From: Lobosporangium transversale
Lineage: Eukaryota; Mortierellomycota; Mortierellomycetes; Mortierellales; Mortierellaceae
Length of the DNA stretch: 64,000 bases
Direction: 5' to 3'
Assembly (NCBI RefSeq): GCF_002105155.1
Contig: NW_019029044.1
Span: 124,001 to 188,000, forward strand
Positions 11,399 through 59,951 of this stretch are shown here, piece after piece. Both the position numbers and the translations under genes were made by a program. The notes beneath the pieces were generated by a model that searched no databases, was not told the DNA's origin, and saw only the letters and a list, made by a program, of their open reading frames with translations. Within the stretch, counting starts at the first letter, position 1, and every line of letters begins with the position of its first letter.

Positions 11399-13044
11399 CA
11401 TCCTTATAACACTCCTTTTTTTTTCTCTCTTAAAAAAAGACATTGAAGGAACCGGTTCCTGACTTCTCAAATACTGAAGAATGGTACGACATCAAGCTCC
11501 TTACTGTTGGCGCCCCAGATCCTGATATCATTCACAAGCGAAATATCCCTATGTCATTCAAAACCCAGATACATTGTGCTACTACAGTCATGAGTCGCTG
11601 TCAGGTGTATTCGAATAAAAAGACACACGCAGGTCGTCATGCTGGCACAACAGAAGCATACCATCTAAGACTAGATGTGAACCATGTGCTTCATCTTGGC
11701 CGTTGGAAGACAGGACAAATGCAAGCGTTTTATGCACCAATGATTCCAATTACCGGCGCGTTTTATATGGCTCATTTTAACAAGATAGATGAGCCATACT
11801 TCATTGAACGCGATCTTGTCACTCCACCTCTCGCCCTTCAGCGCCTTATCTTCCCGTGGATTGAGGATAATTTTAAAACAGACATGCCTCAGAAGACACA
11901 GTCCTGGATCAAGGAATGCGACCAAGAGATGGAGGGGTTGGACCCAAATGTCTGCACAGCAGAAGACCTCCATTCGATCCCACCTCGAGAATCTGCAGCA
12001 ACTGTCGGAACTTCCAGAATCTACGATACTGTTTTGGTAAACCGCATTGCTTTCCTTAAACTCCTTGTTCGTATGAGGCGCGTGATCCTTCAGGATGCCG
12101 TCCTTTACATGAGGACTGATGAAGCCGGCCGATCTTTGACCAATAACCTTCTCGCTTCTCTGGACGTCTTCAAGAACCCGATGTTTATTAAATTCCAGGC
12201 TGATCTTATCCGAGCTATGGATGAATATTCCAAACGCCCCGATCTCATCGAACCTCACGTTTTGGTTAATCGCGATACCGTGGTGCAAGGGTTCAATTCA
12301 CTCAACAGTGGACTCAATTCACTCAACAGTGGACTCAATTCACTCAACAGTGGACTCAATTCACTCAACAGTGGACTCAATTCACTCATCGGCCGTATCA
12401 GCCGCATCGAACAACAACAAGACAAGGTTATCCGAGGTATCTCGGCCCAGATTAACCGTATGATGCAACAGCAAGAAGAATTATCCAAAGAGCGCCAGGC
12501 TCAGTCGCAATTATCGGCGATGAATGATACGTTCAACTTGGAGCTCCATCAGCTGATGGCTCGATCGCCTCAAGTCTTTTTACAAAACCAGCAATCGTCA
12601 TCACAATCCCCACAATGGCCACGCCCTCGCCCTCAGTCCTCGCCGCAGCCTTCAGTCCTATCACAGTCTGCAGAACAGCAGTCAGAGGTGCCACAGGGTG
12701 ATGATAGGAGCAAGGGTTACATTATGCTACCTGATACCTGTTTGACAGTTCAACAGGCTTGGGACGAGTTCTATGGTCCAGTGAAAGTTGCCATCCTTCA
12801 AGATAAGGCATGGCCTTTCACTCCAGCCCGTCGGAAAGCCTATAGGCGCCGTCACCAGCTTATTGAGCTCATCAGGAGGGAGGCGAAAAGGAGGGACCAG
12901 CGCATCGACGAGTTCGTGAAAGCGCTCTCAGAAGCCAGCAAAGGGCGTACCATGAATTCACTTCGTCTTGAAATGGAGGCGAAAGAAAAAGGTGTTACGA
13001 AAGAAGGAGACCAGGAGGAGAATACGCAGGCACAATCATCGTAA
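9598..13044 (+). pseudogene. Crypton/Ndc10-type tyrosine recombinase with GCR1_C domain, one nonsense codon
   Basis: Exons 9598-10044, 10159-10564, 10668-11338 and 11440-13044 join in phase to 1042 codons. A single in-frame TGA at 11171-11173 sits where the related units at 52.6-59.3 kb have an Arg codon (their ...TRHP against ...E-stop-HP), suggesting CGA to TGA. Tyrosine-recombinase residues can be placed: Arg in LLRDEDLRNL, HAGR as the HxxR box, LGRW, then Tyr in QAFYAP. Such Ndc10-like domains are the catalytic core of Cryptons. The 3' exon encodes four to five GLNSLNS heptads (coiled coil), a Gln/Ser linker and a C-terminal block starting YIMLPDTCLTVQQAWDEFY that resembles GCR1_C, a DNA-binding domain. 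A VPVPVPVP run comes from a CTGTAC hexamer repeat at 9857-9881. The element's ends were not found. The TGA could also be a sequencing error. Confidence 0.75.
12286..12386 (+). repeat. 21-bp tandem repeat coding for GLNSLNS heptads
   Basis: The unit GGACTCAATTCACTCAACAGT (period 21) recurs about 4.5 times inside the recombinase 3' exon. It encodes repeated Gly-Leu-Asn-Ser-Leu-Asn-Ser, a heptad with Leu at regular spacing, just before a Gln-rich predicted coiled coil. Confidence 0.95.
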
Positions 13045-21360: not shown

Positions 21361-21533
21361 GAATTAATCTATTTGGCAGCCCAGTTGCTAAATATTATGA
21401 ATAAAGGAAAAATGCACCCCCCCGTCAAATTGAATTTTGACCCCCGGTTGAAAATTTCTAAAACACCCCCGCGAACACCCCCTCTATTCGGAATTCTAAG
21501 CCCCGTCCCCCGGGTTGTCAAATAGATTCACCC
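21361..21533. repeat. Short element with MULE-type terminal repeat and C-rich core
   Basis: The left end GAATTAATCTATTTGGCAGC matches the terminal repeat of the elements at 32.1-32.8 and 52.6-59.9 kb. The right end GTTGTCAAATAGATTCACC is a degenerate complement. The core is strongly C-rich (ACCCCCCCGTCAAATTGA...) and is related, inverted, to the G-rich stretch at 32008-32092. It may be a free-standing degenerate MITE or one terminus of a larger element. Confidence 0.6.
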
Positions 21534-26639: not shown

Positions 26640-29600
26640 ATGTCTAGCGAACCTTCCCACGCCTCACTAACTGATTCTCTTGTCATGTCACCTACTGATG
26701 TCCCTTTCTTTTTTGGCCGAGACTGGTGTAGTCAGATGACTTGCAAAGATTTGCTGGCTTGGCAACCTAGTCTTCCGAAATTCAGTTCTGATCCGCTGCA
26801 TCTGACCGACGATGAACCCGAAACAATTTTGCCGCCTTCAAAGCTCTTTCTCCTAAGCTGTATCCCGACTCAAGGTGAATTCGACAGAATAAAAAAAAAC
26901 ATGGATGCGAAAAAGACTCCGTGCTGGGTCTTGATTGACAATGCTGGTCTAGACTATTCCAAATTCCTGCTAATATCACAAGTCATTGGAGTGGTGGAAT
27001 TTATCAATAAGCTCCATCGTATGGTAGAATGGCTCGAAAAAGAAGTACGCACAGCCAACCCCGTGTTTGAGGCATCGTTCATGCCGCGACTTAGCTCATG
27101 CACATGGATGCACCACTTCATTCTCTCGGGAATATCAGTTTCCATACATGACATCCTCCCATTCGCTGGCACTCAGTGGCTAAACGATGGAAGTTTGGAC
27201 GGCATCCTGGGGATGTTCCAGTCCGTCTATGAAGAGTTCCTTTTTATTCCATCATATCAAACATTATGTTTGGGAAACCAGGAGCTCAGAGCAACCAATG
27301 GCGGAGGCTGGAAGCAAGCGGAAATTAAGTCCGGCAAGTATAAAAAAGCATATGCCATTATACATATGAAAAACCACTGGGGTGTACTTTCTATCGATTT
27401 CAAACGCCATGAGATAGCTTTTGGGGACTCCTTGAGTTATCCTACGCCTCAAGAAACAATCAATGGCGTCCGCCGATGGCTAATAAAGTGCTTCGATGGC
27501 AGAGGAGCACAAGCATGGAATAAGCCTGTTAGGAAGTTGCTTGTAGAGCCACAGATAGATGGTGGTTCATGTGGCATTTATGCAGCGAATGCAGTCGAGC
27601 ATGATGTCCATAAGACTCTTCAAGGCGAAACGTCCAACATTTGGAAGCTTGAATCTGCAGACCAAGTGTTGTTCCACCGTATCCGGTATTTAGCTCTCTT
27701 AGTAGGCGTGCCTGAGGTAACAGCAGTAACCGTCGCTTGAAGATGCGACTATACAGACAAAATGACTAAAACAGTGGCTATTATTGTTCGTATTAGATTG
27801 AATCCAATGCCGATGAACTCTCATCCGTATCCAGCGACTGTCAAGGACTGACAGGACGATTGCAAGAGAAGGTAAGTAATTAAGGAACAAGAATGAACTT
27901 AGGAGATTCAAGAATAGTTTTATTGCAGACTGAGGTTTACTATGTTACAAGTCTATTATATTTATACTTGTTTGACTGAAGCGGAGACGCGCTTCAAGAA
28001 CTCTAAATAAAGCTTACTCAAATATTTCCTAAGGACTTTTACCATATGCGGAACTCCAAGTGTTGAGTTAACTTAATACACAGGATCCGAGGAAGATATC
28101 TGGTGCAATCTTATTTCAAGGTTCCTTAGCACTATAAGTCTTGGTTATTGGTTTATAGCTCTTCTAGAATCCTTGGAGCTATTCACGGAGCTAGAAAACT
28201 AGGAGACGCGACTTGGCTTGACAGGCAAACTATGCATGGAGGAATGAGTGAAGGAAATGAGCGGAACAAATTAATCAAGCACACGTGATCTTTTTCAGAT
28301 TCGAATCAGACAAAAGTCATTCATCAATTCATGAGCTAGACATTGCTTGCTGTTCGTGACAGCGACGTACACCAATACAGGGATAGCGCCAGTATTAGTA
28401 CTGATGTAGACCTTGATTTCGAAAACGAATACAAGGCATTGGATCATGATGACTGCCCCTCCACCCTAGATGATTTAATCGTCAATCGAAACCTCGATAT
28501 ATGGAAGGGGAAGCCTTTCAAGGATTGTGTAAATAGCAAGAGTGAAGGTGAGCCTAGGGGAAGTCTGAGGATGACTATTCTCTCAAGTCTATCCGAAGTT
28601 GCTACGATGGTGCTGGCTATTTATGCTAGTTGGCAGCGACGTGAGAGCCGGTACTAATATGAGTAATGTATAATGTATATAGAGAACAATGTGAGCGACA
28701 TGTTCGCAGATAGCGATATCAACGAAAACACGGATCAGGACGAAGTCGGAAGTGACCAAGAGAGCTCCAATGCCCTCAGTAGTGAAACCGACTGTGTGGA
28801 CATGAGTAGGAGCATCAAGAGTATTGAGAGTAGCGCATCAGTATGCCTTAACCAGTGGACCCCTCAGACAGACGACGAGTTTGATGATTTATCTGCAGCG
28901 AGAGCATGGATTGAAGCCTGGGCAGCAGAAATCGGGTTTAAGATCAGGATAGGAAAATCTAAGCCAAATGGAGCTCCACCCTCAAGTACGTACATATCCT
29001 TACTTGAAGAGCATGTTCATGTACTTGAAGCTCAGGGTGTATTCCTCTAACAACCAACGTATTACATGGTATATTGTAGTCAAATTTGTCTGCAGCCTAG
29101 CTGGGATCCATTCGCCAAACAAAAGTCAAGATATGACTAAACGGCACAATAAGGCGCCGTCTAGACGCTGTAGTTGCCCATTTTTCATCAACTTGACTTG
29201 TCCCCGTAACATTTTCCCCAAGTGGCACATCACCAAGGTGGACAATCGGCATAATGGTCATGAGATGGATCCAAAACTCAGGAAATACGATAAGCTATCC
29301 GATGCTATGCTGAGTACCATAAAGAAATGTGCTGATCTAAAGCAGAGCATCGGTAATACTTTGGCATTTCTTGATTACGAACATCGAGGCCACAGGTTCA
29401 ACAAAGTCGAGGCCGAGACTCGCCTCAAGGCATTTAGGAAAGCAAATATCCATAATGAAGTGCCGCAGACCGTTCAACTTCTCACTCTCTTGAATCAGAA
29501 GCCGCGCATTGTCGACTCAATTGATGGTTGGTACCACCATGCCATCTATGACTCGACCAACGCCTTGTCTCGCCTCTTCTGGATGAACCCGAGCCAACGA

Positions 29601-31483
29601 GAGCTATATCGGCGATACCATGATGTTGTGGTGATCGACACTACTTTTCAAACGAACCGACTTCGCATGCCCCTCCATTGTATTGTTGTTGTTGATGCCC
29701 ATTTCAAGACTCGATTAGTTGCATGCGCTTTGATACGTACAGAGAAGGCGGAGGACTATGAATGGGTCTTCGAACAGCTTAGGATAGCAAGCGGTAACCT
29801 TCAACCGGGCACCCTATTAATGGATAGTGACTCAGCAATGGATACGGCATGTTCGGAAGTGCTCAGAGAAACTCGTATCGTGAATTGTATATGGCATATC
29901 AACAAAAATCTCCGTCCAAATGTGCAAACTGTGCTCGGTGATAAGAAGTTTTCTATCTTCAAGAAGCGATTTGAGCAATTGCGCGAGGTCTTAACAGAGG
30001 AGGCATTCGATTACCTCTGGGGAGAGTTATTGGATGATCACAAAGACGACGCCAAGGTTGTTTCCTATTTGGAAACTCTCCATAAACGACGGTCTCATTG
30101 GGCAGGGCCATGGGTCAAGTCGTCTTTTACAGCAGGCATGCGATCGACGCAGCGGGTCGAAATGACGCATAACCTTATCAAATCAGTAGGCATCAATAGC
30201 CAAACGTCTCTGGTCGATCTCTTTGAGGTACTCAGTAAGACTGCAGGAGACGAGCACTTCCGATACAAGATGGATTTGAAGGTTCCCGATGTGACTGATA
30301 GTATGATTGTCAAGACGTTTGAACAGGTCTTAAAGATGAACAGCAAGTATCTAACTAAATACTCCATGAACGAGATAAGAAAGGAGATGGGATACTCATT
30401 TGGATTCAGTCATCAAGCCCTCGATCTTCAGGAGGTTTTGCAGCATGTAGAAATCAGCTCCAGACGGATGGTAGGTCGTCATCCCGCGTTTATGCTTATG
30501 ATATATCCATTGCCTTGAGGCATGGGAGTGCATCTAAAAGAGACACCTCATTGAATGACTTGTCTTCTAAAATATTCAACTTACTGTTTTAAATATGCAA
30601 AAAATCAACACAATAATAGGAGGATCTCCTGTATCAACAGGTTGCTTTCTTGATCTCCAGGGCTGGCCAAGAAAACGTGATGGCTGTTTCCTCCGTCGAA
30701 GACAAGACGTCGTCAGTGTCAGAAATCGTCGTTCTATTCAGAGATAGGAAGCATTTCTGCACCTGCGCTCTTTCAACCAACAAAGGGTTTGTTTGCCGGC
30801 ACTACTTTTGGATGATGCAAGAAGACAACAGGTTTACTTACCACATTAAAATGGTCCTAAGACGATGGTTCCAAGAGAACAAGCAGGAAGGCAAGGCTGT
30901 TGAAGACATGATCGAGGGAGAGCCGTTCGTCAATGCATCAACCCGCAAGGCCCTTGACCCCATTGGCAGCCTACCCGACGAAGGCACGGCGACCCTGCAA
31001 GCTTTTTATCCTCCCCTATCTGTGCCTAAATCCAACAGACGATCTAAGAAGCGCTACGCGGCAGTGATGGGAGTGTCGAAAGCCATTGCAGAAGCCATGA
31101 CGAAAGCTTCAGTGCAGGATGATGATTTTGGCAAGGTTATGGACAGCTTGGACTCGATACAAAAAAGTACAAACATATCAACCAAGGAGACTGGCCTTAC
31201 CGCAGGTTCTGATGAAGTTGTCAAGGCACAGGATGGTGCTGATAGCGATTGCTTGTTTAAAGGTATCCCAGTGGAGAGTATTATTGATGGAGATATACTC
31301 AATGGGAAAGGCAGACCAAGAAGCCGGCGGTTTACGGCAAGCTACGAAGACAAACAGAGCAAAAATGAGCCTGCGGAGCCCACGGCAGAGACGCCAGCAC
31401 GATCCATGCAGGCCAAGCGAAGGAAAGTCGGGTCCGAATCACTTGTCTGGCAGATTCCAAAAACAATCTCTGATTTTAAGTAG
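26640..31483 (+). pseudogene. Ulp1 protease-MULE transposase fusion gene, interrupted by a solo LTR
   Basis: Exons 26640-27716, 27797-27838 plus 28367-28547 (one exon split by the LTR), 28683-28985, 29101-30470 and 30641-31483 share one phase: 1271 residues once LTR and one target copy are ignored. N-terminal part: Ulp1/C48 protease with KNHWGVLSID (His), IAFGDSL (Asp) and DGGSCGIYAAN (Cys). An acidic linker follows, then a FAR1-like Cys/His finger (RRCSCPFF...DNRHNGHEM). Next is a MULE transposase: DTTFQTNRLRMPL (first Asp), LMDSDSAMDTA (second Asp), CIWHINKN. Last is a SWIM finger, CTC...VCRHYF. The C terminus is basic. It would cut and move MULE DNA; the protease may act on SUMO-like conjugates. 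All motifs look intact except for the LTR. Confidence 0.85.
27839..28361 (+). mobile_element. Solo LTR, copy 1, in the Ulp1-MULE gene
   Basis: A 523-bp sequence starts TGTCAAGGACTGAC and ends CTGTTCGTGACA (TG...CA), flanked by the 5-bp duplication GCGAC (27834-27838, 28362-28366). It is nearly identical to 33836-34372. No internal retrotransposon genes are present, so it is a recombined solo LTR. Confidence 0.92.
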
Positions 31484-32107: not shown

Positions 32108-32768
32108 CTATTTGGCAGCCTACTTCTGGGGCTGCCACTTAACTTCGCACTCTTGGGTGGCAGCTGGGCTGCCAAATACATTACTTTTTTTTTTTTTTTT
32201 TTTTTTGATAACAGTGTCATAACATCAGTGGTAAAACAGGCAGCGTTTTGTGGATACATTGCCTTGCACAGCTAATGCCGCCGGAGGTACTAAGGGCAGC
32301 GGCGATGACATCTTCACAAAACAACCTTCAATGTACACGGTTAGGGAATGATTTATTGAAGACGTCTAGGTAGCAGGTGAGACGCGTTTGCTCCGAGCGA
32401 AAACCTCTCATAGGCATTGATCTCCAAATGGCACCTCCAAAACTGTATGAGCGACCTACTTGAAAAAAAAAAAGTCATTAGTTTTCTAAATGAGACAAGA
32501 CAATGTCACTACACATAACTATGACGTAGAAGACGGGAGCTTTATTAATTTGAAGTATGAGCGTTATAAACATATACGGTTCCTAGGAATGAAAAAAAAA
32601 AAAAAAAAAAAAAATAGTTAGAGGCCAAATAACGCTGGGTAGGCTGCCAAGTAAATAATGAATGTTATTTGGCAACTGGGCTGCCAAAGAGAGTCTTGAA
32701 AGTTGATTATATTTGGCAATGGGCTGCCAAATAATATTTAGCAACTAGGCTGCCAAATAGATTAATCC
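32108..32768 (-). mobile_element. MULE-type MITE, inverted copy of the 59.3-59.9 kb element
   Basis: 32108-32688 is the reverse complement, with few differences, of 59311-59896, including the internal poly-T/poly-A tracts. Beyond 32688 lie two further TTTGGCA...TGCCAAA units. The last ends GGCTGCCAAATAGATTAATCC at 32748-32768, the family terminus. It has no coding capacity. Confidence 0.88.
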
Positions 32769-52141: not shown

Positions 52142-52389
52142 GATGCAGAAAAAATTGAAAAAATCTTTAATTGTTTATCAGTTGTTGAAAAAAAAACGAA
52201 ATTGTATGAAGGAAGAATAAAATGGAGAATTTGAATGGAATGCAAGCGATGATGCTATTGCTTTTTATACCTATACCTCAACAGCCACAAACGCATATTA
52301 TTTCCTTTTTTATAATAAACACGTGAGTGGCTTGTTATGCATAATAATATAGTTATATATTTGTAGCAGATCGATAAACTTCAGAGCAT

Positions 52390-52472
52390 CCGAAAATAGC
52401 TCAGTTGGTAGAGCGGGAGACTGTAGTTTGTCTGTCATCTCTAGGTCCCTGGTTCAAATCCGGGTTTTCGGA
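52390..52472 (+). tRNA. tRNA-Tyr (GTA) with 10-nt intron, copy 2
   Basis: Identical over 83 bases, including the intron (52427-52436), to the gene at 14653-14735. Anticodon GTA at 52423-52425. It is followed by TATCTTTT. ATTTGCACGGGCCCGTACAAAT, an inverted pair, lies about 40 bases downstream. Confidence 0.97.
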
Positions 52473-52996
52473 TATCTTTTACCGTTTCATTATTTTTACT
52501 TGGAAAAAGATATTTGCACGGGCCCGTACAAATAACTTCATCCTTTTTACTTAGGATGACCAATTTCATGGTTCCCGTTCCTGTTTTACTTGCACGGCGA
52601 GTGTTTTTTTCTTTTCTTTTGAGGGCTTATTACCCGGATTAATCTATAATGGATTATGATGCCAAATCCAGCCCTTTTTCCATTTAAGGGTATTATGTTT
52701 CATGTCTGTACGTACAAGACATGTGTCCGTTTTGTGGCTTTTACTCCGACACTTGTCCTGAAATTTGAATTGACATCAAATCCATCGAAATTTTAACAAT
52801 GTCATCATGGCATGCTAAAGATCTCTTTCTTTCTTCTTTATTTCACGCCTTCATTCCTCCATACATTCATATACACAATAAAACAATAAAACCTACAATA
52901 CACAGAGTAGACTTACCCTCTCCCCTGACTAAAGCTGAGAAAAATAACGGCACATTCGCATTTTCAAAGGTTCATTCCTGCTTGCTCACTTTCAAA

Positions 52997-54412
52997 ATGA
53001 CAAACAACAACGAAAAGATTTTATCCAATTTCACCTGCATGGATTTGGAACAAAGCACCAGTCAGACGAAGCCAACCAAGTCAAGTACTCGCACTGGATC
53101 CACTCGTGCAGCACCGAGGAGAAAAAGAGTTATTCTGACTGACGAAACGACTCCAGAGCCTTCACCAGTGGCACAGACTGTTAGAGTTAGTGCAAAGTCT
53201 TTTAAGCGCCCTAGGCGTTGTGAGGCTGATTCTTTATCCTCAAATTTCCTTCACTCCGGCCCATTGACAGAGGAAGAGCTGGCGCTGGCGAACGCACGGA
53301 AGGAGTCGGCGAGAAGTGTGCTGTAGATGATTTTAGATGATCCAGATTCATCGACGACAGTGAATCAATATAAGACATAGCTCCGGCTGTGGGAGGTATG
53401 TTTGATCATCAAAATGTGGCTATGAGCTATCTCAGACAGGCTAGCAAACTAGACGACTTGGCTAATTCTCTTTTTTGTTTTTAGCAATACTGCAATGAAA
53501 ATTATCAAGGTGACTGTAGCGTCGATGCGAAACGCATGCTTGAATACTTCACAACGGTTGTCTTCAAGCGAACAGTGAAGCGATTGATCGGCACAGATCG
53601 TTGCTATCGTGGCGCTATTGGGTATGCCCAGCAAGGTGGAGGAGATTCTTCGAATTCTCAGGCTGGGGAAGACGCAGTCTATGAGGGAGAAGAGATCGAC
53701 GAATTAGTCGAGGCAGATATCGACGAACATGAACTAAGCGACATGGAGCAGAGACTGGAGACATTAGATAATAGCGAGCAAGTTGATGACGACGACGGCC
53801 AAAGCATAGACCAAGGTCAACAACAGGGACAGGGACAGGGTCAGGAACAGGGTCAGGAACAGGGTCAGGAACAGGGTCAGGAACGGAGACAGGGTCAGGG
53901 GCAGGGACAGGAACAAGGACAGAAACAGGAACAGGATGAAGATCTGGAGCTTCAGCTGAGGTCATTAGCACAGAGAGGTAAGAAGGCTCCTCTCTCCTGG
54001 GATAATATGGAGCCACCTGAAGGAGTCGACCCACATCAATGGCAGATTGATATAGCATTGAATGATGAGGAGCGAGCATCACATGAAGCTGTAACTGTTG
54101 GGGGTTCAAGCAAGAACATCACGCCGAAGCGGAAGACTGCAGCCGTTATCAGGACTGAAAATGAAAGAGAACAAGGTATGTAAAGATAACCATGTATTAA
54201 TATATAAATTGTCAGTACTGGGATCCAAACCTTTGGGAAGGCTCCGCTATCACGCGTACCCCAGGTGACAAGACACCATGGCTGCAATTCAGTGTTAATT
54301 ATCAATATAAATAGCCTACTAAATTATGACTTAATAAATCATTCCTTAATCCTGCATCCACCTTAATGTATCTTTGATTGTTGCAATTTGGTTGATATTT
54401 TTTATTATACAA

Positions 54413-54449
<37 letters not shown>

Positions 54450-55219
54450 GATATACTTTCGCGTTTGTAGTTATCCTGCAAGCACCAGAGGACAAACATG
54501 GCAGCAAAAATGTCTTTGTTCCTCTCAGGCTGGGGACAGTCGCAAATGTTAAGAAGGCTTTGCAATACTTATGGAGGCAACAGTCTTCTTTGACAGCTCC
54601 GTATCCCAATCCCGCCCCAAACCCAAGAACGGATGTACCACTAGCGGAGGCGATCAAAAATTATGGAGAGAAACTTGTCCATCACAAAGTAACGACAGGC
54701 ACCTTATCCCGCACTGCCACCTGTGCCGTACGAGAACCTTACAACACTAAAATGTACCTGCGTATGTTGGCCTTTACATGGCGCATGCTTCCGACGGTTG
54801 GAGTAAGCGGCAGGCGACCTTCCGACGGTTGGAGTAAGCGGCAGGCGACCTTACGACAGTGTTGCGCGATTTCAATATATGAGGGAGAGGCTATGCCTCC
54901 TTGCACGCCATCATATGTTGCTGCGGGATGAGGATATCCGAAACTTGAACCTGGCTAACACATTCAATATTCAGACCCGTCACCCCGCGCCAGGGTCAAA
55001 GCTGGCGTCGGGGCTTGTCTTCTGCATCACACGTGGAAAGACAAACCATAAAGGTGTCGAACTCTATGCGACAGCTTATCGACATAAGCTGTTCTTAAGG
55101 TGCACCGTGGGCGGGTTTGCATTTTATATACTAGAACGGTTCCAGGTAAATGATGCCGTCAGCCTTGACGCGAGCGTATGATTTTTTCTCATTCAATTAC
55201 ACGAAGTGACATATATCCT

Positions 55220-55252
<33 letters not shown>

Positions 55253-55648
55253 CCCTATTGTAGGTAGGTGTTCAAGGAGCCTCTTCTCAATTTTGCGGAC
55301 CCTGACGAGTGGTACAGCATCAAGGTGCTAACAGGGGGTGGCACAAGCCAAGAACGGTTAGAGAACCGAAAGGAAGCGCTTGTTGGCCGAACCCAAATGA
55401 GCACTACGGCGGCTGTAATGCGTGCCTGCGACGTGCATTCGGCCAAAATTACGCACTCTGGCCGATATGCAGGGGTCTCGGAAGCCTACGAAAGAGGCTT
55501 AAGCCTGGACGATATTCCACTTGGGAAGGTAGCTACAAGAGGCAGAAAACTGTTGGCTGCATCCTTGAGCCAAAAGAGGCTGAGAAAATACAATGTACAA
55601 GCAATCCATTGTCGTGAAATTTGTGATATTCCAAGGTGTTTAGCATAA
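52997..55648 (+). pseudogene. Degenerate Ndc10/Crypton tyrosine recombinase, copy 1
   Basis: Exon-like blocks 52997-53395, 53485-54175, 54471-55145 and 55268-55648 match the recombinase at 9598-13044 in order and splice position. Defects: two in-frame TAG codons before the first donor (after RSVL and after NQYKT), a 31-bp tandem duplication at 54788-54849 that shifts frame before LLARHHMLLRDED, and loss of sequence after the HSGR box, so the LGRW...Tyr region and the GCR1_C domain are missing. A 12-bp CAGGAACAGGGT repeat codes for GQEQ. It cannot make an active recombinase and could move only with help in trans. Confidence 0.85.
54788..54849 (+). repeat. 31-bp tandem duplication causing a frameshift (copy 1)
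   Basis: CTTCCGACGGTTGGAGTAAG plus 11 bases occurs twice in direct succession (54788-54818, 54819-54849). 31 is not a multiple of three. Read with a single unit, the frame continues into the RFQYMRERLCLLARHH segment. Confidence 0.97.
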
Positions 55649-55973
55649 GTATCATCCAGAAAAAAGCATTATCGTCAACACTATTAACAAGACAAAACAC
55701 CATCAAAGCGCTATCAAAGCATTTTTAACTCGACTCGGCTACCAACGCACTATAGCAGAAATAATTGAATACTTCATCAATATAAAAACTGTCTTAATCA
55801 TTAACACTGTCTCTACCATAAAAAGATTTTGTCTATTTCGCTTCACAAATCCATTTTGTGGAAAAAGATTTGTGAAGCGAAATATAAAAATTTTGTGACT
55901 TGGTATCCTTCTGTGTCCACCTGTGTCCGCCTGTGTCCATCTGAATGGACACAGGTGAGCAATTTCGTTTCAC

Positions 55974-57745
55974 AATCTATAATGGATTATGATGCCAAAT
56001 CCAGCCCTTTTTCCATTTAAGGGTATTATGTTTCATGTCTGTACGTACAAGACATGTGTCCGTTTTGTGGCTTTTACTCCGACACTTGTCCTGAAATTTG
56101 AATTGACATCAAATCCATCGAAATTTTAACAATGTCATCATGGCATGCTAAAGATCTCTTTCTTTCTTCTTTATTTCACGCCTTCATTCCTCCATACATT
56201 CATATACACAATAAAACAATAAAACCTACAATACACAGAGTAGACTTACCCTCTCCCCTGACTAAAGCTGAGAAAAATAACGGCACATTCGCATTTTCAA
56301 AGGTTCATTCCTGCTTGCTCACTTTCAAAATGACAAACAACAACGAAAAGATTTTATCCAATTTCACCTGCATGGATTTGGAACAAAGCACCAGTCAGAC
56401 GAAGCCAACCAAGTCAAGTACTCGCACTGGATCCACTCGTGCAGCACCGAGGAGAAAAAGAGTTATTCTGACTGACGAAACGACTCCAGAGCCTTCACCA
56501 GTGGCACAGACTGTTAGAGTTAGTGCAAAGTCTTTTAAGCGCCCTAGGCGTTGTGAGGCTGATTCTTTATCCTCAAATTTCCTTCACTCCGGCCCATTGA
56601 CAGAGGAAGAGCTGGCGCTGGCGAACGCACGGAAGGAGTCGGCGAGAAGTGTGCTGTAGATGATTTTAGATGATCCAGATTCATCGACGACAGTGAATCA
56701 ATATAAGACATAGCTCCGGCTGTGGGAGGTATGTTTGATCATCAAAATGTGGCTATGAGCTATCTCAGACAGGCTAGCAAACTAGACGACTTGGCTAATT
56801 CTCTTTTTTGTTTTTAGCAATACTGCAATGAAAATTATCAAGGTGACTGTAGCGTCGATGCGAAACGCATGCTTGAATACTTCACAACGGTTGTCTTCAA
56901 GCGAACAGTGAAGCGATTGATCGGCACAGATCGTTGCTATCGTGGCGCTATTGGGTATGCCCAGCAAGGTGGAGGAGATTCTTCGAATTCTCAGGCTGGG
57001 GAAGACGCAGTCTATGAGGGAGAAGAGATCGACGAATTAGTCGAGGCAGATATCGACGAACATGAACTAAGCGACATGGAGCAGAGACTGGAGACATTAG
57101 ATAATAGCGAGCAAGTTGATGACGACGACGGCCAAAGCATAGACCAAGGTCAACAACAGGGACAGGGACAGGGTCAGGAACAGGGTCAGGAACAGGGTCA
57201 GGAACAGGGTCAGGAACGGAGACAGGGTCAGGGGCAGGGACAGGAACAAGGACAGAAACAGGAACAGGATGAAGATCTGGAGCTTCAGCTGAGGTCATTA
57301 GCACAGAGAGGTAAGAAGGCTCCTCTCTCCTGGGATAATATGGAGCCACCTGAAGGAGTCGACCCACATCAATGGCAGATTGATATAGCATTGAATGATG
57401 AGGAGCGAGCATCACATGAAGCTGTAACTGTTGGGGGTTCAAGCAAGAACATCACGCCGAAGCGGAAGACTGCAGCCGTTATCAGGACTGAAAATGAAAG
57501 AGAACAAGGTATGTAAAGATAACCATGTATTAATATATAAATTGTCAGTACTGGGATCCAAACCTTTGGGAAGGCTCCGCTATCACGCGTACCCCAGGTG
57601 ACAAGACACCATGGCTGCAATTCAGTGTTAATTATCAATATAAATAGCCTACTAAATTATGACTTAATAAATCATTCCTTAATCCTGCATCCACCTTAAT
57701 GTATCTTTGATTGTTGCAATTTGGTTGATATTTTTTATTATACAA

Positions 57746-57782
<37 letters not shown>

Positions 57783-58552
57783 GATATACTTTCGCGTTTG
57801 TAGTTATCCTGCAAGCACCAGAGGACAAACATGGCAGCAAAAATGTCTTTGTTCCTCTCAGGCTGGGGACAGTCGCAAATGTTAAGAAGGCTTTGCAATA
57901 CTTATGGAGGCAACAGTCTTCTTTGACAGCTCCGTATCCCAATCCCGCCCCAAACCCAAGAACGGATGTACCACTAGCGGAGGCGATCAAAAATTATGGA
58001 GAGAAACTTGTCCATCACAAAGTAACGACAGGCACCTTATCCCGCACTGCCACCTGTGCCGTACGAGAACCTTACAACACTAAAATGTACCTGCGTATGT
58101 TGGCCTTTACATGGCGCATGCTTCCGACGGTTGGAGTAAGCGGCAGGCGACCTTCCGACGGTTGGAGTAAGCGGCAGGCGACCTTACGACAGTGTTGCGC
58201 GATTTCAATATATGAGGGAGAGGCTATGCCTCCTTGCACGCCATCATATGTTGCTGCGGGATGAGGATATCCGAAACTTGAACCTGGCTAACACATTCAA
58301 TATTCAGACCCGTCACCCCGCGCCAGGGTCAAAGCTGGCGTCGGGGCTTGTCTTCTGCATCACACGTGGAAAGACAAACCATAAAGGTGTCGAACTCTAT
58401 GCGACAGCTTATCGACATAAGCTGTTCTTAAGGTGCACCGTGGGCGGGTTTGCATTTTATATACTAGAACGGTTCCAGGTAAATGATGCCGTCAGCCTTG
58501 ACGCGAGCGTATGATTTTTTCTCATTCAATTACACGAAGTGACATATATCCT

Positions 58553-58586
<34 letters not shown>

Positions 58587-59307
58587 CCCTATTGTAGGTA
58601 GGTGTTCAAGGAGCCTCTTCTCAATTTTGCGGACCCTGACGAGTGGTACAGCATCAAGGTGCTAACAGGGGGTGGCACAAGCCAAGAACGGTTAGAGAAC
58701 CGAAAGGAAGCGCTTGTTGGCCGAACCCAAATGAGCACTACGGCGGCTGTAATGCGTGCCTGCGACGTGCATTCGGCCAAAATTACGCACTCTGGCCGAT
58801 ATGCAGGGGTCTCGGAAGCCTACGAAAGAGGCTTAAGCCTGGACGATATTCCACTTGGGAAGGTAGCTACAAGAGGCAGAAAACTGTTGGCTGCATCCTT
58901 GAGCCAAAAGAGGCTGAGAAAATACAATGTACAAGCAATCCATTGTCGTGAAATTTGTGATATTCCAAGGTGTTTAGCATAAGTATCATCCAGAAAAAAG
59001 CATTATCGTCAACACTATTAACAAGACAAAACACCATCAAAGCGCTATCAAAGCATTTTTAACTCGACTCGGCTACCAACGCACTATAGCAGAAATAATT
59101 GAATACTTCATCAATATAAAAACTGTCTTAATCATTAACACTGTCTCTACCATAAAAAGATTTTGTCTATTTCGCTTCACAAATCCATTTTGTGGAAAAA
59201 GATTTGTGAAGCGAAATATAAAAATTTTGTGACTTGGTATCCTTCTGTGTCCACCTGTGTCCGCCTGTGTCCATCTGAATGGACACAGGTGAGCAATTTC
59301 GTTTCAC
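55974..59307 (+). mobile_element. Crypton-like unit, copy 2 (3334 bp)
   Basis: A direct tandem repeat of 52641-55973. The only difference I noticed is one extra T in the T tract near 58556-58586. It ends before a third AATCTAT at 59308-59314, which leads into TTGGCAGC of the host MITE. It carries the same dyads (56034-56056; 59168-59185 with 59201-59218). Confidence 0.93.
56330..58982 (+). pseudogene. Degenerate Ndc10/Crypton tyrosine recombinase, copy 2
   Basis: The same exon-like blocks as copy 1 shifted by 3333-3334 bases, with the same two TAG codons, the same 31-bp duplication (58121-58151, 58152-58182) and the same truncated end. Sharing every defect shows that the unit was already dead before it was doubled. 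Confidence 0.85.
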
Positions 59308-59951
59308 AATCTATTTGGCAGCCCAGTTGCCAAATAACATTCATTATTTACTTGGCAGCCTACCCAGCGTTATTTGGCCTCTAACTATTTTTTTTTTTTT
59401 TTTTTTTTTTTCATTCCTAGGAACCGTATATGTTTATAACGCTCATACTTCAAATTAATAAAGCTCCCGTCTTCTACGTCATAGTTATGTGTAGCGACAT
59501 TGTCTTGTCTCATTTAGAAAACTAATGACTTTTTTTTTTCAAGTAGGTCGCTCATACAGTTTTGGAGGTGCCATTTGGAGATCAATGCCTATGAGAGGTT
59601 TTCGCTCGGAGCAAACGCGTCTCACCTGCTACCTAGACGTCTTCAATAAATCATTCCCTAACCGTGTACATTGAAGGTTGTTTTGTGAAGATGTCATCGC
59701 CGCTGCCCTTAGTACCTCCGGCGGCATTAGCTGTGCAAGGCAATGTATCCACAGAACGCTGCCTGTTTTACCACTGATGTTATGACACTGTTATCAAAAA
59801 AAAAAAAAAAAAAAAAAAGTAGTGTATTTGGCAGCCCAGCTGCCACCCAAGAGTGCGAAGTTAAGTGGCAGCCCCAGAAGTAGGCTGCCAAATAGAGGCA
59901 AAAATTACTATATTTGGTATGGGCTGCCAAATAGATTAATCCTTATTACCC

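Follow-up and report, generated by a model that had tools for sequence, protein, structure and literature searches.

Introduction

Crypton elements of the CryptonF type, found in fungi and oomycetes, encode a tyrosine recombinase related to Cbf2/Ndc10, with a link to the GCR1_C domain (Kojima and Jurka 2011, PMC3212892). In the excerpted text of that paper they are described as lacking terminal inverted repeats (TIRs) and carrying terminal direct repeats of 4 to 6 bp, with a circular intermediate proposed, and non-autonomous derivatives are reported for CryptonI and CryptonA. Here, we analyze a 64,000-nucleotide stretch of the Lobosporangium transversale genome (C91:124001-188000, referred to as the window; the genome comprises 42.7 Mb in 127 contigs), in which two head-to-tail units of a Crypton family that we call Crypton A lie within the terminus of a miniature inverted-repeat transposable element (MITE) of the Mutator-like element (MULE) type. 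Very probably, these two units are a dimer of a CryptonF derivative that lacks autonomy and is mobilized in trans by a recombinase that crosses over at a short core, prefers MITE termini, and itself produces the dimers.

Crypton A resembles CryptonF in its type of recombinase, the absence of TIRs, and short direct repeats, and perhaps in a GCR1_C-like C terminus (here below the cut-off), but differs from CryptonF as described in the excerpts in using the termini of other transposons as targets and in its frequent head-to-tail dimers (PMC3212892). Like Crypton A in a MITE, MarCry-1_FO of Fusarium oxysporum joins a Crypton to a DDE-type transposon; according to the same excerpts Mariner moves the whole composite, whereas Crypton A appears to enter existing MITEs independently (PMC3212892). 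As far as we found, Crypton site choice and the rise of copy number by conservative recombination are little documented. No title or abstract opening in a literature search with thin coverage of subscription journals concerned Cryptons in MITE termini or a MULE-type MITE downstream of tRNA genes.

Two further systems offer parallels. The IS5075 and IS4321 elements are bacterial and use a DEDD recombinase, whereas Crypton A is a eukaryotic tyrosine recombinase element. In the cited excerpt, these insertion sequences likewise occupy the conserved terminus of another family, the ends of Tn21-family transposons, as a safe harbor, with occasional use of a look-alike site elsewhere (PMC8269217). The host MITE family, MITE1, rather than the Crypton, recalls Ty1 and Ty3, which integrate beside tRNA genes; as excerpted, these are retrotransposons that lie upstream of tRNA genes, whereas MITE1 is a DNA element with a 9-bp target site duplication (TSD) that lies downstream (PMC7175516).

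Two Crypton A units interrupt a MITE terminus

The heptamer AATCTAT occurs at 52641, 55974, and 59308 of the window, marking the two outer borders and the junction of the units, and the direct repeats are spaced 3333 bp apart and then, beyond a poly-T tract, 3334 bp. These positions and spacings verify the layout proposed in a first-pass annotation of this DNA, which saw two units of about 3.33 kb bounded by the heptamer. Both units are short, non-autonomous forms on the forward strand; unit 1 spans 52641 to 55973 (3333 bp), and unit 2, head to tail with it, spans 55974 to 59307 (3334 bp). Once aligned, they are one T apart, in the poly-T run, with no substitution. The left core (52641 to 52647, +) is attL-like and the right core (59308 to 59314, +) attR-like, while the single core common to both units (55974 to 55980, +) has the sequence expected of a circle junction.

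When the units are ignored, GGATTAATCTAT (52636 to 52647, +), the outer part of the MITE1 terminus, joins TTGGCAGCC (from 59315) to give the MITE terminus GGATTAATCTATTTGGCAGCC. This 21-mer has 106 copies in the genome and its reversed control has none. The remainder of the host MITE1 runs from 59308 to 59942 and ends in the other terminus, GGCTGCCAAATAGATTAATCC, and identical 9-bp TSDs, TTATTACCC, flank the whole at 52627 to 52635 and 59943 to 59951, an arrangement far beyond chance. Both the intact terminus and the assignment of the host to the MULE-type MITEs were correctly called from the window.

Crypton A insertions share a core and favor MITE termini

Searches with the unit and with its left end, plus stitched loci, yielded 16 complete Crypton A units at 11 loci (C2, C33, C35a, C35b, C39, C44, C51, C58, C69, C91, and C106). 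Partial copies at C52, C95, and C104 were excluded from this count, and a left-end match at C43 (3 mismatches) was dropped because it resembles the unit in poly-T alone. Units of different loci are separated by 13 to 66 substitutions; the exception is the C44 unit, in a MITE, and the first C2 unit, outside any MITE, which have no substitution between them and differ in length only.

Seven of the 11 complete loci lie in MITE termini of two families, MITE1 and MITE2, exactly after ATT/AATCTAT, where the slash marks the junction (C33, C39, C44, C51, C58, C91, and C106); with the partial copies the share is 8 of 14, C52 being in MITE2. At the other loci the core is preceded by AAT (C2 and C35a) or TAT (C69), or the junction is TAC with ATCTAT (C35b). 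On the right, AATCTAT is followed by TTGGCAGCC at C33, C91, and C106, by ATGGCAGCC at C44, by TTGACAACCC at C39, C51, and C58, and by other DNA at the remaining complete loci; C52, of which the right end only is present, also continues into TTGACAACCC. An exact empty site is provided by an uninserted Crypton of a sister family, family B, which reads cactac-ATCTA-actg where the Crypton A junctions read cactac/ATCTAT and AATCTA/actg. The core proposed in the first-pass annotation, AATCTAT, is therefore right to within a base or two and is best given as (A)ATCTA(T), because one site shares ATCTA alone.

In a repeat search of the flanks of C2 and C69, parts matched themselves alone; the right flank of C35a is a family B Crypton. 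At C104, a family B/C element is matched, at its left end, by the left flank but not by the right. The right end of this copy (C104:69400-72400, 870-886) meets the core at what appears to be the inner, not the outer, TTTCGCTTCACAA repeat, which suggests that the inner arm might stand in for the usual end.

The preference for MITE termini is strong. AATCTAT occurs 6054 times in the genome (reversed control, 4140), and the conserved terminus ATTAATCTATTTGRCARCC occurs 267 times with up to 2 mismatches (control, 2), a count that already takes in the MITE2 termini with GTG before the core but misses more diverged ones. Termini thus make up 4.4% of AATCTAT sites, so that about 0.5 of the 11 loci would be expected there against the 7 observed (approximately 14-fold; P ~9e-8), and P would still be 2e-5 were the terminus share 10%. 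The 10-mer ATTAATCTAT has 286 genomic copies (control, 70), and because at least 147 of these are exact MITE termini (111 MITE1 and 36 MITE2), a preference for the 10-mer is hard to separate from one for the whole terminus. MITE2 has ATT before the core on one side and GTG on the other (36 ATT, 29 GTG, and one ATG among the ends listed). All three complete MITE2 insertions use the ATT end and C52 leaves the GTG end intact (P 0.09), a bias that is suggestive only.

The preference is not exclusive. Four of the 11 loci (C2, C69, and both at C35) lie outside MITE termini, and therefore the core alone can suffice. Further, few termini are occupied; 8 carry a Crypton A end, compared with about 267 recognized uninterrupted ones. 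The MITE terminus thus stands as a preferred site, but the first-pass annotation went too far in expecting a genome-wide landing pad present at every MITE copy. Copies at unrelated sequences, which it had named as the finding that would speak against it, do occur.

The recombinase gene is intact in longer relatives and decayed in the window

Longer relatives of the window units, 4.75 to 4.87 kb, encode a tyrosine recombinase; the family as a whole spans 3.3 to 4.9 kb. In the full-length relative at C106 (4874 bp) the gene is split by introns, and segments of two neighboring exons score above the curated cut-off for NDC10_II (E value, 1.6e-19). The C terminus of the long form resembles GCR1_C only weakly, with a score of 21 bits (E value, 4.3e-4) where the curated cut-off is 23. 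In tyrosine recombinases, H-x-x-R, W, and Y are catalytic residues. Here, an alignment of the query with 11 of its 24 protein matches shows H63-x-x-R66, W89, and Y98 without change in all 12 sequences. The named organisms among the 24 are Haplosporangium, Mortierella, Linnemannia, Actinomortierella, Dissophora, Entomortierella, and Podila; as Mortierella alpina is a member of the Mortierellaceae, these names point to a host that is probably in that family. The first Arg (in LLRDEDIR) sits in a separate exon and is aligned in one relative only. In all 11 long units the last long exon is open (542 to 564 aa) and contains the H-x-x-R/W/Y motif, and an exon of 248 to 263 aa contains LLRDEDIR, so that the R-H-R-Y signature is present in the long form. 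Crypton A has no TIR; its ends, AATCTATAATGG and TTTCAC/AATCTA, have the core alone in common. Judged by gene sequence and junctions, Crypton A is of the CryptonF type, with GCR1_C below its cut-off, and the Crypton-like nature of the units assigned from the window is borne out by the NDC10_II-matching recombinase gene, the lack of TIRs, and the short direct repeats.

When the recombinase was compared with PDB sequences, there was no match up to an E value of 1. DUF3435 marks the captain recombinases of Starships; Pfam scans gave no DUF3435 match, and the elements are small (3.3 to 4.9 kb), so a Starship identity was rejected. Elsewhere in the window, positions 11434 to 13041 hold a further Crypton-type recombinase open reading frame (ORF) of a more distant family (536 aa; NDC10_II E value, 5.6e-13).

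The window units retain remnants of this gene. In unit 1, the N-terminal part of the catalytic region lies at 54807 to 55181 (+; NDC10_II E value, 2.8e-05) and the C-terminal exon at 55268 to 55648 (+), stopping before the conserved W and Y; the corresponding remnants of unit 2 are at 58140 to 58514 and 58602 to 58982 (both +). About 1.45 kb has been deleted internally (junction near 55530), taking W, Y, and the GCR1_C region with it, and the C69 and C35b copies share this deletion. The two window units also have in common a 31-bp tandem duplication (54788 to 54860, +) that disrupts the recombinase frame and is absent from the other 14 complete units, and the remnants contain premature stops. 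With these lesions the window units cannot make the recombinase and, by their sequence, are decayed, non-autonomous CryptonF derivatives.

Each unit also carries an inverted repeat near its right end (ATTTCGCTTCACAAATC...GATTTGTGAAGCGAAAT; 55828 to 55890 in unit 1 and 59162 to 59224 in unit 2). One arm resembles the last bases before the core, TTTCGTTTCAC, and is a candidate recombinase site. The right end of each unit further contains subterminal TGTGTC/GACACA repeats (55910 to 55956 and 59244 to 59290), which are candidate protein-binding sites. These hexamers lie near element ends in 5 of 7 cases in family A, 4 of 5 in family C, and 4 of 4 in family B, and the clustering occurs in families with different cores.

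Most MITE1 copies examined lie downstream of tRNA genes

MITE1 has TIRs and a 9-bp TSD, as a MULE-type MITE should (TTATTACCC in the window and AAAATTTAT at C24). Among 10 sampled copies, the TSDs agree at 9 of 9 positions in five (one of them all T), at 7 of 9 in one, and at 2 or 3 of 9 in four. A MULE transposase ORF at 28953 to 30515 of the window (521 aa; E value, 6.2e-23) lies upstream of a MITE1-like sequence at 32108 to 32768, which ends in a MITE1 terminus near 32768; the ORF is possibly the autonomous partner of MITE1. At about 21361 to 21533, a short segment begins with a terminus of the MITE1 type and finishes with one of the MITE2 type, and is perhaps a hybrid MITE.

In the window, ARAGORN predicts a tRNA-Tyr gene (52389 to 52473, +) 162 bp outside the host MITE and transcribed toward it. 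Similarly, a tRNA gene lies 11 to 163 bp from MITE1, always transcribed toward the MITE, in 16 of 21 distinct copies examined: all four that bear Cryptons, 4 of 5 others, 7 of 10 sampled (P 4.5e-9 even assuming 2000 genomic tRNA genes), and one at C95:913051 (tRNA-Arg). The C29 copy has no tRNA gene in the 3.0 kb examined there, the nearest to the second window copy (32108 to 32768) is 3.3 kb away, and the copy at C40:755486, with only 94 bp of outside sequence, was left out. No tRNA gene was found in the available flanks of the MITE2 loci, about 1.5 kb a side, or in those of the non-MITE loci. MITE1 is thus apparently a DNA element aimed at tRNA genes, and, since it lies just downstream of them, the Crypton inherits a tRNA-proximal, and perhaps safe, address. 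All four MITE1-borne Cryptons occupy the tRNA-proximal terminus (P 0.06).

Dimers recur within Crypton A

Crypton A dimers are present at 5 of the 11 loci (C2, C35a, C58, C69, and C91), so the tandem pair is not peculiar to the window. Each has a single exact core at its junction, which corresponds to the predicted circle junction. In four of the five dimers the units differ by single T residues only; in the C2 dimer there are 14 mismatches, all in one 53-bp tract beside a poly-T run. None of the 11 loci has three units.

Head-to-tail repeats, up to four, also occur in family B (core ATACTG; 59 to 71% protein identity). Segment matches at C82 (C82:8500-16500, near the contig start) are spaced 4554, 4569, and 4569 bp, with a single core at the one junction read; the spacing at C48 is 4569 bp, and recombinase matches at C12 (C12:22465-27857) are 4541 bp apart.

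The two C35 regions (C35:198371-204695 and C35:673714-686408) exchange flanks. C35a (+) is bordered on the left by unrelated DNA and on the right by a family B Crypton; for C35b (-) the two neighbors are the other way round. C35b is mosaic: up to 2822 the informative sites follow the C35a type with a single exception, and from 2826 all eight follow the C69 type. The simplest reading of these sequences is recombination between two inverted copies, through which a segment of about 472 kb would have been turned around. The reciprocal half is not mosaic, and a misassembly is the alternative reading. On the simplest reading, ATCTA would be the core of an insertion in family B and AATCTA that of a second insertion, in other DNA. 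With or without the inversion, neither lies in a MITE.

Alternative explanations

Could the MITE bias arise without any recombinase preference beyond the core, MITE termini being sites where Cryptons survive, or open chromatin beside tRNA genes attracting the element? The tRNA genes next to MITE1 and the tRNA-proximal position of its four Cryptons would fit such a view. However, the MITE2 hosts have no tRNA gene within about 1.5 kb a side, survival might yield an estimated 2- to 3-fold excess rather than 14-fold, and the MITE2 insertions keep to the ATT end despite comparable numbers of ATT and GTG termini, leaving this explanation unlikely. A different possibility is that a Crypton entered a MITE once and MULE transposase then spread the Crypton-bearing MITE, as the location of seven loci in MITEs (three on the same side of MITE2), the close MITEs of C39 and C58, and the reported Mariner-Crypton composite MarCry (excerpted in PMC3212892) might suggest. 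Copying of a Crypton-bearing MITE would be expected to leave MITE and Crypton equally diverged, but the MITE bodies are overall more diverged than their resident Cryptons: 3.1% against 17 substitutions (~0.35%) for C106 and C33; 2.7% against 56 substitutions (~1.7%) for C44 and C91; 1.1% (8 sites, weak alone) against 26 substitutions (~0.5%) for C39 and C58; and bodies barely alignable (47% mismatches) against 34 to 36 substitutions (~0.7%) for C51 compared with C39 and C58. Further, the insertions draw on a second MITE family as well as on either side of MITE1, Cryptons with no substitution between them sit in a MITE at C44 and outside any MITE at C2, and the Crypton interrupts the terminus needed for transposase binding. 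The MITE2 hosts at C39, C51, and C58 have distinct 9-bp TSDs, read by eye. Composite movement was dropped on the divergence comparison, and we consider it very improbable.

For the dimers, the single T that separates the window units raises the prospect that one unit was duplicated in assembly. The recurrence of dimers at five loci, each with an exact single core, the 53-bp difference between the C2 units, and the fixed spacing of family B repeats at C82, C48, and C12 make a pure assembly duplication quite improbable, and it was rejected on the strength of this recurrence and of the family B repeats. Unequal homologous crossing-over can lengthen an existing dimer, and the C35b mosaic looks homologous. 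As a first step it is improbable because a single copy offers a repeat of 5 to 7 bp only, and exchange at such a core is the recombinase's own reaction. Of the two origins named in the first-pass annotation, repeat insertion and unequal exchange, the former fits tandem insertion by the recombinase, whereas the latter is unlikely to have begun an array.

Proposed mechanism

In the favored reading, a circularized Crypton would be crossed over by tyrosine recombinase at the 5- to 7-bp core, leaving one core at each end. The enzyme would favor a core within the conserved terminus ATTAATCTATTTGRCARCC of the two MULE-type MITE families, a dispersed and non-exclusive landing site. The window units would receive it in trans from full-length members of the family at other genomic loci. 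Dimers may form when the recombinase joins the left core of one copy to the right core of the sister-chromatid copy, or when a freshly excised circle reinserts beside a resident copy; both routes would give like units with one core between them.

Several points weigh against this scheme. Neither a circle nor transposition has been observed, and dimers at single loci could be assembly errors. The C2 units differ in their 53-bp tract, four of the 11 loci lie outside MITE termini, and the GCR1_C score falls under its cut-off. Inspection by eye revealed no TSD flanking the C33, C44, and C106 MITEs.

Significance

With 11 insertions whose junctions can be read, an exact empty site, dimers, decayed copies, and a sister family that uses a different core, this one genome opens the target choice and array growth of Cryptons to direct testing. 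The chances seem about even that a Crypton recombinase has evolved recognition of the terminus common to two DNA-transposon families, one of them aimed at tRNA genes, which would combine two-step targeting with arrays built by sister-chromatid exchange. The system would be a eukaryotic counterpart to the IS5075-type use of transposon ends, and it includes a DNA transposon located downstream of tRNA genes. With such two-step targeting, the Crypton would settle at a safe address already chosen by another element and then multiply in place as head-to-tail arrays.

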